DNA from: Lactiplantibacillus plajomi
GTDB taxonomy: Bacteria; Bacillota; Bacilli; Lactobacillales; Lactobacillaceae
Reading direction: 5' to 3'
DNA: 48,268 nucleotides
NCBI RefSeq assembly: GCF_005405405.1
Contig: NZ_BJDZ01000022.1
Location: forward strand, 1 to 48,268
Within the stretch, counting starts at the first letter, position 1; each line of letters begins with the position of its first letter. Below the pieces are notes generated by a model. That model made no database searches. It was given only the letters and a program-made list of their open reading frames with translations, and was not told where the DNA came from. Below are positions 27,446 through 31,694 of this stretch, one piece after another. The position numbers and the translations under genes were made by a program.

Positions 27446-28378
27446 ATGTCATACGCCAGTGAAGTTAAGAAAGAATTAACCAACCTTGCTGTCCATCGCG
27501 AAAATGCCAAGGCCGAACTGATGGCTCTAATTCGGATGAATGGAACGATTAGCTTGGCTAATCACCATTTTATTTTGAATATTCAAACTGAAAACCCGGC
27601 AATTGCGCGGCGTATTTACCGGTTATTAAAGCAATTTTATGACGTTGCCAGTGAACTGATCGTTCGCCGAAAAATGAAGTTGAACAAGAATAACCTGTAC
27701 ATCGTGAGACTAAAGACCGGGACGGACATGGTCCTTGCGGATTTAGGAATTTTAAAGGATTATCAAATTGTGGAAGTGGCGCCGACCGAAGTGTTAACGG
27801 ATGACGGCGCGGTGCGGTCCTATTTACGGGGCGCATTCTTAGCCGGCGGATCCGTTAATAACCCAGAAACGTCGCGCTACCACTTGGAAATTTATTCGCT
27901 GTATGAAGAACATAACCGGATGATTTCTGAAATGATGAACAAGTACGGCTTAAATTCGCGAACGACCAACCGGCGCGGCGGATTCATTACTTACATCAAG
28001 GAAGCTGAAAAAATTGCCGACTTTTTGTCGCTGATCGGGGCGACTACCGCGATGCTCAAGTTTGAAGACGTGCGGATCATGCGTGATATGCGCAATTCGG
28101 TTAACCGGCTCGTGAACTGTGAGAACGCCAATATGGATAAGGTGGCCAACGCCTCTAGTCGGCAAATTGAAAACATTTTGTTGATCGATCAGACGGTTGG
28201 TTTGAAACAGTTACCGCAAAAGTTACAAGAAGTGGCGGTCACCCGCTTGGCCCACCGCGAAGTTAGCTTGAAAGAGTTGGGAACGTTGGTGCCGGGGGGG
28301 CCAATCTCCAAGTCGGGAATCAATCACCGGCTCAGAAAAATCAACCAATTTGCTGAACGGCTTCAAAAGGAAGCTTAG
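27446..28378 (+). CDS. whiA: DNA-binding protein WhiA
   Basis: WhiA has an N-terminal domain related to LAGLIDADG homing endonucleases ([15 protein letters not shown]) and a C-terminal helix-turn-helix ([20 protein letters not shown]). It governs sporulation in Streptomyces and affects division and chromosome segregation in Bacillus. The protein has 310 residues, full length, with a TAGGAGG site upstream. It is the last gene of the rapZ-yvcK-whiA operon. Confidence 0.95.
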
Positions 28379-28385
28379 TTTTGGG

Positions 28386-28421
28386 CGGCTCGGGTACCGG
28401 TATGGTCCCGGGTCGTTTTTT
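28386..28421 (+). terminator. Terminator after whiA
   Basis: A GC-rich stem (about 12 bp with wobbles and one bulge) between 28386-28398 and 28404-28415, followed by six T bases. Confidence 0.8.
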
Positions 28422-28463
28422 AAATCGAATGAGAACTTAATTAAAATCACGTGATGAAAACAC

Positions 28464-28493
28464 TTGACAAAAGTAAGTAGAACTGATTATACT
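28464..28493 (+). promoter_or_regulatory. Near-consensus sigma-A promoter of the oppA leader
   Basis: TTGACA (28464-28469) and TATACT (28488-28493) are separated by 18 bases. This is one of the best sigma-A matches in the window. The transcript would start near 28500 and carry the small ORF and terminator described next. Confidence 0.88.
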
Positions 28494-28515
28494 TGGTTCA
28501 ACTTATGAGATCGGA

Positions 28516-28614
28516 GAGACGTAGTCATGCAAATTTCAGCTAGCCAAATGATGATGTGCTGCCCATGTTGTGAACCTGACAACATGGTTATTTGCGTTGA
28601 ATTACAAGCGTCTC
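28516..28614 (+). ncRNA. Candidate three-way-junction leader RNA
   Basis: Three helices are compatible with each other: P1 GAGACG-T (28516-28522) with 28608-28614; P2 ATGCAAAT (28527-28534) with ATTTGCGT (28590-28597, one G-U); and P3 CCATGTTGT (28563-28571) with ACAACATGG (28579-28587). A 4-bp CAGC/GCTG helix (28537-28540, 28558-28561) completes a junction. P1 covers part of the small ORF's ribosome site and P2 covers its start codon. CAAGCG (28605-28610) in the P1 region could instead pair with TGCTTG in the terminator arm. This is folding by eye only; no known riboswitch class is recognised. Confidence 0.5.
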
Positions 28615-28631
28615 CAGTGCATCAAAATTAA
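28527..28631 (+). CDS. Cys/Met-rich leader peptide upstream of oppA
   Basis: An ORF of 34 codons with GGAGAG (28513-28518) 8 bases upstream. Residues 8-15 read MMMCCPCC, with further Met20 and Cys23, so seven of eight consecutive residues contain sulfur. There is no signal peptide. The position between a strong promoter and an intrinsic terminator before a peptide-binding lipoprotein fits a ribosome-mediated attenuator that senses charged Cys- or Met-tRNA. Alternatives are a metal-binding micro-protein, or a chance frame within a structured RNA. Confidence 0.6.
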   Translation: MQISASQMMMCCPCCEPDNMVICVELQASPVHQN

Positions 28632-28660
28632 CGGCATTGAGCTCAAATCGTTATTTTTGA

Positions 28661-28704
28661 AACGCCTGCTTGGAATCTGACGAGATTCTAAGCAGGCGTT
28701 TTTT
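28661..28704 (+). terminator. Strong terminator between leader ORF and oppA
   Basis: An 18-bp stem with one G-U pair (28661-28678 with 28683-28700), loop GACG, and six T bases (28699-28704). It lies 48 bases before oppA, and no convincing promoter follows it, so oppA expression probably needs readthrough. Confidence 0.93.
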
Positions 28705-28751
28705 GTTTCCGGTGCGTAAGGATACTTAGATTAAAAAAGGGGCGAAAAGAA

Positions 28752-30404
28752 TTGAAAAAGAAATCAGTTGTGACGGCATTATTGAGTTTAGTATTAGTAA
28801 CGGTGTTGGCTGCTTGTGGTCAGAATAGTTCACAATCGACTGGTAGTGGGAAATATGCCAGTAACCAAGTACTGAACCTTTCTTATCCCAGCCCGCTCGA
28901 TTCAATCGATATTTCTAACATGTCCGGTTATGGCAGTACCGGGAATATTTTTGAAAGCTTGTACCGGTTGGGGAAAAACGGTAGCATTACGCCTGGATTA
29001 GCCAAGTCGACGAAGGTATCGAAGGACGGGAAAACCTATACCTTCACGATTCGTGATGCCAAGTGGAGTGATGGTTCGGCAATTACTGCTCAGGACTTTG
29101 TTTATTCGTGGAAGCGGACGGTTACGCCGGCAACCAAGTCGCAGTACGCCTACCTCTTCTCGGGTGTTAAGAACGCGGACGCCATCGTGGCCGGTAAAAA
29201 AGCGCCAAGTACGTTAGGCGTTAAGGCTGAGGGCCAGCATACTTTCATCGTTAGTTTGGAAAAACCAATTAGCTACTTTAAAAAGTTGATGACTTACCCG
29301 CTTTTTGGACCGATCAGTGAAAAGGCGGTCAAGAAGTGGGGCGCCAAGTACGCCACTAAGGCGCAGTACATGCTTTATAGTGGGCCATTTAAGTTGACCG
29401 GTTGGACCGGGACCAATAATAAGTGGCAATTTGTCAAGAATGACCAGTACTGGGATAAAAAGGCGGTTCACTTACAAAAGATCAACTATTCTGTTAACCA
29501 AAGTACGACCACTACGTTGAACTTATTCCAAGAAAATAAGCTTGATTTAACCCAGTTAGCTAGTGAACAAGTTAAGAACCTGAAAAATAATTCAAAATAC
29601 CGGACGTATCCGTACTCGATTACGGCGTTCCTGGTTTATAACTTCCAAGATAGCGATTCAACCGTGAAGAAGGCACTCAATAATCAAAAGATTCGCCAGG
29701 CCATTTCGTTATCGATCAACCGTAAGACGCTGGTCAAGAACGTTATTGGCGACGCGTCAACGGTGTCTAAGACTTTCGTTCCCCAAGACTTGGCGGACGA
29801 TCCCAAGACTGGCAAGGACTTCTCGGCACAGTCAACCGTTAAAAATTCAACGTCCTATAATACTAAGTTGGCTAAGCAGTTATGGCAACAGGGGCTGAAG
29901 GAAACCGGTTTGAAAAAGCTGACCCTCCGGCTGTTGACCTCGAATGACGAACCCAACAAGCCGATTTCGCAATATTTGAAATCCGCGTTGGAAAAGAATT
30001 TAACTGGGCTGACGGTCGATTTATCCAACATCCCGGCAAAGGTAGCATCCAGCCGGGCTCAAGCTGGCAACTTTGATTTGTACCTAAGCGGTTGGGGCGC
30101 CGACTTCAACGACCCGATTTCCCACTTACAAATTATGACGAGTAACAGCGGCTATAATTACGGAAAATATAATAGTAAGACTTATAACCAGTTAGTCGAC
30201 CAGGCCCAGGATCAGGATGCCAATGATAAGAATGCCCGTTGGCAAGATATGCTTAAAGCGGAACGGACAATCATGCAGGATCAAGGCATTACACCACTGT
30301 ACCAGACGGTGTACTCGCACCTTCAAAATCCGAAGGCCAAGGGGATTATTCACAATACCGCGGGCACCCAGTGGAATTACAAGTACGCTTACATTGCGAA
30401 ATAG
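28752..30404 (+). CDS. oppA: Oligopeptide ABC transporter substrate-binding lipoprotein OppA
   Basis: An extracellular peptide-binding lipoprotein of the SBP_bac_5 family with 550 residues. The signal peptide (1-21) ends in lipobox LAAC with Cys22, so it needs Lgt. Start TTG 28752 has AAAAAGGGGCG upstream. Typical family segments are present: the N-terminal ISNMSGYGSTGNIFESLYRL region, and SDGSAITAQDFVYSWKR. No permease or ATPase gene is adjacent, so it must partner with an Opp transporter elsewhere. Control by the upstream Cys/Met-rich leader would suggest a role in supplying sulfur amino acids from peptides (inference). Confidence 0.93.
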   Translation: MKKKSVVTALLSLVLVTVLAACGQNSSQSTGSGKYASNQVLNLSYPSPLDSIDISNMSGYGSTGNIFESLYRLGKNGSITPGLAKSTKVSKDGKTYTFTIRDAKWSDGSAITAQDFVYSWKRTVTPATKSQYAYLFSGVKNADAIVAGKKAPSTLGVKAEGQHTFIVSLEKPISYFKKLMTYPLFGPISEKAVKKWGAKYATKAQYMLYSGPFKLTGWTGTNNKWQFVKNDQYWDKKAVHLQKINYSVNQSTTTTLNLFQENKLDLTQLASEQVKNLKNNSKYRTYPYSITAFLVYNFQDSDSTVKKALNNQKIRQAISLSINRKTLVKNVIGDASTVSKTFVPQDLADDPKTGKDFSAQSTVKNSTSYNTKLAKQLWQQGLKETGLKKLTLRLLTSNDEPNKPISQYLKSALEKNLTGLTVDLSNIPAKVASSRAQAGNFDLYLSGWGADFNDPISHLQIMTSNSGYNYGKYNSKTYNQLVDQAQDQDANDKNARWQDMLKAERTIMQDQGITPLYQTVYSHLQNPKAKGIIHNTAGTQWNYKYAYIAK

Positions 30405-31622: not shown

Positions 31623-31694
31623 TGCGCCCGGAGGGAATCGAACCCCCATTTCAAGAACCGGAATCTTACGTGCGATCCATTACACTACGGGCGC
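31623..31694 (-). tRNA. tRNA-Arg (anticodon CCG)
   Basis: Read on the minus strand: acceptor arm GCGCCCG/CGGGCGC, D-arm GTGT...GCAC, anticodon stem TAAGA/TCTTG with loop TTCCGGT giving anticodon CCG, and a T-arm with GGTTCGATTCC. It decodes CGG, a codon often used in this window outside the glycolytic genes. CCA is not encoded. A TATAAT-type -10 lies upstream (31706-31711 on the plus strand). Confidence 0.95.

Follow-up and report, generated by a model that had tools for sequence, protein, structure and literature searches.

The window analysed here, a 48,268-nt contig of Lactiplantibacillus plajomi (NZ_BJDZ01000022.1), carries a leader in the interval between whiA (27446-28378, TIGR00647) and the gene that it would control, which encodes an OppA-like lipoprotein (SBP_bac_5; 28752-30404, 550 aa). 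The TTG start of this oppA gene at 28752 was taken from a mechanical ORF list. The gene order is oppA, clpP, gap and pgk (names assigned by eye), and a tRNA gene is located beyond clpP on the minus strand (31623-31694). On the 3' side of whiA, a GC-rich inverted repeat followed by a T run (28384-28420) was seen by eye and is absent from the terminator scan. This repeat is likely a terminator and would insulate the leader against the whiA operon. The oppA gene and all leader features described below lie on the plus strand.

The promoter (28464-28493), described in the earlier note as near-consensus, indeed matches the consensus at 11 of 12 positions, with a -35 box TTGACA (28464-28469), a spacer of 18 nt and a -10 box TATACT (28488-28493). 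Scanning for promoters alone did not exceed chance (6 found vs 5.1 ± 1.8 expected), nor did scanning for terminators alone (5 found vs 4.2 ± 2.1 expected). The leader is above chance by virtue of its conservation at the sequence level, in 21/21 genomes of the genus with E-values of 9.1e-60 or better. The promoter spacer begins with AAAGTAAGT, next to the -35 box, and TTGACAAAAGTAAG precedes 21/21 oppA copies of Lactiplantibacillus. The conserved AAAGTAAGT box in the region 28464-28478 is also found upstream of other leaders: TTGAC followed by (A/G/T)(T/G)AAG occurs in 36 of 60, against 5.0 expected from shuffled spacers, in rows that are not independent. Within its own genome the box occurs at ten places with ≤ 2 mismatches (6 forward, 4 reverse; 1 exact), and its reversed control at 3 forward and 4 reverse places. 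The box is possibly an operator or an element of promoter strength.

The leader encodes a peptide of 34 codons followed by a TAA stop (28527-28631; translation MQISASQMMMCCPCCEPDNMVICVELQASPVHQN). Both the ORF and the ribosome site reported for it earlier were recovered, the latter as a Shine-Dalgarno (SD) GGAG at 28513-28516 that was identified from the sequence and the aligned copies. Its putative control codons are TGC TGC CCA TGT TGT (28557-28571), encoding Cys11, Cys12, Pro13, Cys14 and Cys15, and the resulting CCPCC is invariant in all 22 Lactiplantibacillus copies. The reading frame and the stop column are likewise kept in 22/22 copies. Gap runs within the aligned ORF number 24, with 12 each of 3 nt and 6 nt, while those in the 5' UTR (17 of 1 nt) and 3' of the stop (79 single-nt runs, 21 runs of 4 nt and 2 of 2 nt) are of other lengths. 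Because the gap runs inside the ORF are of 3 or 6 nt only and the stop column is shared, the leader ORF is very probably translated. The variable sites in the 72 core columns are distributed over the three codon positions as 6, 8 and 9, without a third-position excess, so for much of the ORF core the constraint seems to lie in the RNA rather than in the protein. In the genus alignment, drift is seen at the first and last codons. An additional Cys codon, codon 23 (in ICV; 28593-28595), is located at the edge of region 2, the 5' strand of the antiterminator described below; stalling at this codon would hide region 2 under the ribosome and promote termination.

Several hairpins and alternative pairings connect the ORF with the terminator. 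The 9-bp hairpin proposed from the sequence alone (P1, 28563-28587; 28563-28571 with 28579-28587) was confirmed and is invariant within the genus. Its left arm consists of the codons CCA TGT TGT; as the TGT TGT codons form this arm, a stalled ribosome would open P1. A terminator ahead of oppA had also been noted, and its presence is borne out: the predicted intrinsic terminator with its T run occupies 28659-28706, its stem (28659-28702) comprises 20 pairs when G-U pairs are counted, and it lies 49 nt from the TTG start of oppA. Its 17-pair helix is paired in 97.9% of cells in the genus alignment. The 5' arm has a single variable column (C to T in 2 copies), and the 3' arm drifts, mostly through G-U pairs; the near-invariance of the 5' arm and loop would follow from their second role in an antiterminator. 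This antiterminator pairs region 2 (28595-28610), which lies inside the ORF, with region 3 (28667-28682), which coincides with the terminator 5' arm and loop, at 14 of 16 positions. The earlier note had seen no strong antiterminator by eye, which no longer stands; its 6-bp candidate CAAGCG survives as the core of the 16-position, 14-pair structure. In the genus, 99.4% of antiterminator cells are paired, three pairs vary on one side only and one is unpaired in 2/22 copies. The loop of the antiterminator contains a further hairpin, P2 (28622-28660; 28622-28633 with 28649-28660), with 87% of cells paired, two pairs showing two-sided changes and one position paired in only 2/22 copies.

In a competing anti-antiterminator, region 2 would instead pair back with the 5' part of the leader, and helix H1 would close this fold; the 5' strand of H1 (28515-28522) overlaps the SD and its 3' strand (28608-28615) overlaps region 2. 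The outermost H1 pair, A28515-C28615, is a mismatch in the window itself. H1 shows the best covariation among the helices, with 93.3% of cells paired: over the 22 copies, columns 10-113 comprise 14 AU, 3 UA, 2 CG, 1 GC, 1 UG and 1 unpaired, and columns 13-110 comprise 17 CG, 3 UA and 2 unpaired. In the rest of the anti-antiterminator, which lies in the variable ORF start, the pairing partners differ among copies. The MFE of the region-2 fold-back is below the mean of shuffled starts in 22/22 copies and within 5% of shuffles in 11/22; for the pairing probability of region 2, 19/22 copies lie above the shuffled mean and only 6/22 are within 5% of shuffles. Compared with 500 shuffles, which ignore relatedness, the terminated structure (H1, P1, P2 and terminator) beats all shuffles on three of five measures and the antiterminated structure (P1, antiterminator and P2) on one of five, the covariation score. 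P1 and the antiterminator show hardly any variation within the genus. The terminator has a predicted energy of -32.4 kcal/mol and the freed RNA including it -47.6 kcal/mol, against -24.9 kcal/mol for the antiterminator state with P2. Folding without kinetics favours the terminator, and masking the Cys codons does not change this; since the terminator is far more stable at equilibrium, antitermination must win by timing.

The distribution of the element was determined by several searches. A DNA search detected it in 21/21 Lactiplantibacillus genomes as 22 copies, the second copy residing in genome G018. A CM search matched 38 of 397 Lactobacillaceae genomes at E ≤ 0.01, of which 17 belong to other genera; a Cys-rich ORF is present at the CM match in 15 of these 17 and absent in two. 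Further leaders were added by a peptide profile and a hairpin pattern, and examination of 20 candidate regions yielded four leaders (L173, L187, L188 and L191) and 16 regions without one. Over all searches, 60 leaders were counted in 55 of the 397 genomes, a lower bound with Cys codons among the selection criteria. They span six genera: 21 genomes of Lactiplantibacillus (g1), 7 of g5, 5 of g6, 10 of g16, 5 of g23 and 7 of g31. The CM matches in G313 (L082) and G106 (L088) were discarded as chance matches lying across the end of a longer ORF, with no Cys leader there, as were the profile matches L163, L166 and L167 on inspection. An order-level search of 395 genomes returned 20 with a match at E ≤ 0.02; inspection attributed the matches L203, L204, L207 and L209 in other families, and L208 and L212 within the Lactobacillaceae, to chance. 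No near match to the leader region was detected in the plasmids searched.

Homologs keep the ORF and the helices alike, which answers the alignment check proposed in the earlier note: besides the CCPCC of the genus, a CC pair is present in 60/60 leaders, a set whose members were selected partly for their Cys codons. A Cys after N-M near the position of codon 23 occurs in 22/22 g1, 5/7 g5 and 10/10 g16 leaders.

Structure tests across genera were performed on 47 of the 60 leaders, leaving out 12 more genus copies and L079 (g16). A hairpin with a T run is located 5-77 nt after the stop in 46/47 by script and in L154 by eye, counted without a shuffled control. The 47 leaders contain 28 distinct pairs of P1 arms, in which the innermost pair is U-A in 14, C-G in 9, U-G in 3 and unpaired in 2, and the outer positions show single swaps from A-U to U-A and from U-A to C-G; the right arm was picked to maximise pairing, a choice biased towards paired cells. 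When the Cys codons were masked and the terminator 3' arm was withheld, the terminator 5' arm paired upstream with a mean probability of 0.67 vs 0.44 for shuffled sequences. This pairing exceeds the shuffled mean in 47/47 leaders and is within 5 of 100 shuffles in 23/47; L076, L085 and L169, at least, fail to show an MFE lower than the shuffled mean. Duplexes between region 2 and the terminator arm average -12.8 kcal/mol for cognate strands vs -8.9 kcal/mol for pairings with another genus, and the lowest of 5000 draws was -10.3 kcal/mol, among relatives that are not independent. Measured against foreign partners, the cognate one wins in a fraction of 0.88 in g1, 0.89 in g16, 0.80 in g23, 0.77 in g6, 0.71 in g31 and 0.59 in g5; in 8/47 leaders the mean foreign duplex equals or surpasses the cognate one, and the best duplex of L001 has a register other than that of most g1 rows. 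Judged from these duplexes, the switch sequences differ between genera, yet the two strands are a clear match for each other in four of the six. The antiterminator that shares the terminator 5' arm is thus present in the window and the genus, and is weak in g5 and g31. The competing pairing of the 5' part with region 2, which would give way to a ribosome positioned at the control codons, is present in the genus; across genera P1 alone is.

The first gene after the leader encodes an OppA-like protein in 49 of 60 cases, a polar amino acid ABC permease in 5, a DAACS-like symporter in 2, a MetA-like protein in 1 and a gamma-glutamyl-GABA hydrolase-like protein in 1. Two leaders precede a gene without a match in the reference set; by eye, we take one to be OsmC-like with an SBP behind it and the other to be ProC-like with an SBP and a permease further on. 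Three of the ABC permeases have 68-100% and two have 30% identity to that of L031. None of the ABC, symporter, MetA-like and hydrolase-like proteins reaches the NCBIfam cutoff of the family it is named after, so family membership does not establish their substrates. The DAACS-like symporter presumably resembles cystine carriers. Behind the MetA-like gene lies cysK (429.9 bits, cutoff 351), and a plasmid search with the MetA-like protein returned no lactobacillus among the best 30 of 47 matches. The hydrolase-like protein, also below cutoff, is encoded after oppA in L076 (3322-4038, g5) and under its own leader in L164 (625-1446, g6); this neighbour hints at gamma-glutamyl-cysteine or glutathione as a substrate.

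The second copy in G018 (L023/L031, 8615-11584) precedes a four-gene polar amino acid ABC operon. The SBP of this operon has 78% identity over 84% of its length to the SBP of plasmid operons of L. paracasei and L. plantarum, which share the same four-gene order. Where the G018 operon has the leader peptide, its L. paracasei plasmid relative has a T-box instead (62.8 bits, below the cutoff of 93; no T-box at gathering score precedes this operon), and the region upstream of the L. plantarum plasmid copy is nearly the same. Going by sequence, this exchange of leader peptide and T-box on the ABC operon is an apparent regulator swap. We take plasmid record CP000424 to be equivalent to NC_008502. 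The sections of PMC6004538 used here describe a Cys-specific T-box for the glnP2-glnM2-artM2-glnH4 operon type of L. paracasei, with more expression without cysteine, and place this operon type with its Cys T-box also on the ATCC 334 plasmid; in these sections the 5' terminator of the L. paracasei cysE2-ctl1-cysK2 operon is left unexplained.

We propose, with a probability of roughly 0.83, that the leader ahead of oppA belongs to a family of ribosome-mediated transcription attenuators that sense charged tRNA-Cys. The ORF, its codons, the hairpins, the alternative pairings, the covariation and the gene context are features of the sequence itself; from these we infer the stalling, the readthrough, the response to cysteine and the substrate. 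RNA polymerase would transcribe the leader from its own promoter, and ribosomes would translate it without delay. With plentiful Cys-tRNA, ribosomes would clear the Cys codons; behind them P1 would re-form, as would the H1-closed pairing between region 2 and the 5' part. Region 3 would then be free, the terminator would fold and oppA would not be transcribed. Going by ribosome footprint sizes, a ribosome with any of Cys11-Cys15 in its A site covers most or all of the P1 left arm and not region 2. When Cys-tRNA is short, a ribosome stalled at Cys11-Cys15 would therefore cover this arm and keep the 5' part from re-pairing, region 2 would be free as region 3 emerges, the antiterminator would form and RNA polymerase would read into oppA. 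The output would be uptake of cysteine-containing peptides or cystine. A broader proposal, to which we assign slightly less than even odds, is that attenuation replaces Cys T-boxes in a lineage-wide cysteine uptake regulon of the Lactobacillaceae. It would hold that the Cys codons are themselves the sensing hairpin and that the closing helix uses the SD, so that an untranslated leader would shut off its own translation and lock in termination.

The signal could differ from cysteine supply alone. The earlier note suggested a sensor of both Cys and Met, of which the cysteine part is supported and the methionine part is not: MMM stands ahead of CCPCC in 18/22 genus copies, but it is lost in the other 4 and occurs in only 3 of 29 aligned leaders of other genera, which makes an additional response to methionine unlikely. 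Very unlikely, in our estimate, is an arrest of the nascent peptide, in which CC-x-CC in the tunnel would sense free cysteine, metal or redox state and stall as TnaC does with tryptophan. Conserved Cys pairs could bind metal or oxidise, and lp_0783, the presumed L. plantarum counterpart of oppA, is listed among the changed proteins in the consulted part of a cadmium study (PMC5430759). Outside the CC pair, however, the peptides differ between genera, and the conserved N-M tracks the hairpin, being replaced by NV, SM, RM or NK where other bases keep the arm paired; the exception is NI in L154, which loses a pair.

An attenuator of general translation stress (antibiotics, slow ribosomes) without amino acid specificity would use the same RNA, since region 2 would become available whenever a ribosome stalls over P1. 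It is nonetheless very improbable, given that Cys makes up 13.4% of residues in the 47 leaders (a set chosen partly for Cys codons) and that one leader precedes a cysK operon and another a relative of the Cys T-box operon. Finally, the ORF looks translated and could simply be a gene for a small functional Cys-rich protein followed by an ordinary terminator, with oppA expressed by leakage. The peptide has no Pfam or NCBIfam match, its first and last codons drift as noted, and alternative pairings link the ORF to the terminator; we consider this explanation extremely unlikely.

Published expression data for L. plantarum were compared with the proposed cysteine attenuator. The syntenic gene in strain WCFS1 is taken to be lp_0783. 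In the available excerpts it is annotated as a gene for an oligopeptide ABC transporter, with clpP (lp_0786) and pgk (lp_0790) nearby. According to these excerpts, acid raises lp_0783 by 2.61 log2, together with cysE (3.18), cblB (3.69) and cbs (3.45) (PMC7645587), and lp_0783 is up 1 h after addition of a quorum sensing molecule (PMC6459948). A cadmium proteome table gives 2.77 for lp_0783 and -3.54 for cblB, for compared conditions that the excerpt does not identify (PMC5430759); these values speak against simple co-regulation with cysteine synthesis. As far as these excerpts go, the lp_0783 reports are correlations, and mixed.

T-boxes and riboswitches are the mechanisms to which the control of amino acid genes in Firmicutes is mostly attributed. 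Using Rfam at gathering scores, the whole window yielded tRNA only. T-box and riboswitch models gave no match in the leader region 28380-28800, where the sole match up to E = 1 was GlmZ_SraJ (13.2 bits vs a cutoff of 60). If the attenuator reading is true, a Cys-specific attenuator family extends over at least six genera, the leader marks a role in cysteine supply for transporters of unknown substrate, including L. plantarum lp_0783, and the movement of an operon between T-box and leader peptide can be directly tested within one bacterial family. No cysteine leader peptide of lactobacilli was found among the papers listed in searches of the open-licence PMC literature. The kind of mechanism is known; what appears new is the family, together with its spread and its uptake regulon.

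Cysteine codon runs in short upstream ORFs have precedents in other phyla. Poly-cysteine leaderless uORFs of mycobacteria are reportedly described by Canestrari (2020). These mycobacterial uORFs and actinobacterial leader peptides (PMC1262725) resemble the present leader in placing runs of Cys codons before cys genes; as far as the excerpts consulted show, they are leaderless or lack a conserved terminator, and translation attenuation or Rho has been proposed for them. In contrast, the window leader has an SD 10 nt and a predicted -10 box 33 nt before the ATG, as well as a terminator and an antiterminator. A predicted Cys attenuator, uORFC-8-2 of Rhodobacterales cysS (PMC8632094), contains a first stem that holds tandem Cys codons, as a rule at positions 14-15, with an intrinsic terminator behind it; by its description, to which this comparison is limited, it differs in belonging to Alphaproteobacteria and in preceding cysS, whereas the leaders here precede uptake genes and the gene downstream of the window leader is not cysS. 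The L. paracasei Cys T-box (PMC6004538), in the sections used, shares the operon type, the inferred signal and transcription termination, but binds tRNA directly, without a leader peptide. Within the Firmicutes, a further likeness in mechanism is to the His leader peptides of bacilli, regular leader-peptide attenuators that the cited part of PMC2965389 presents as a new finding for Firmicutes as of 2010; these predicted ribosome-mediated attenuators use His codons and precede hisS or hisZ.
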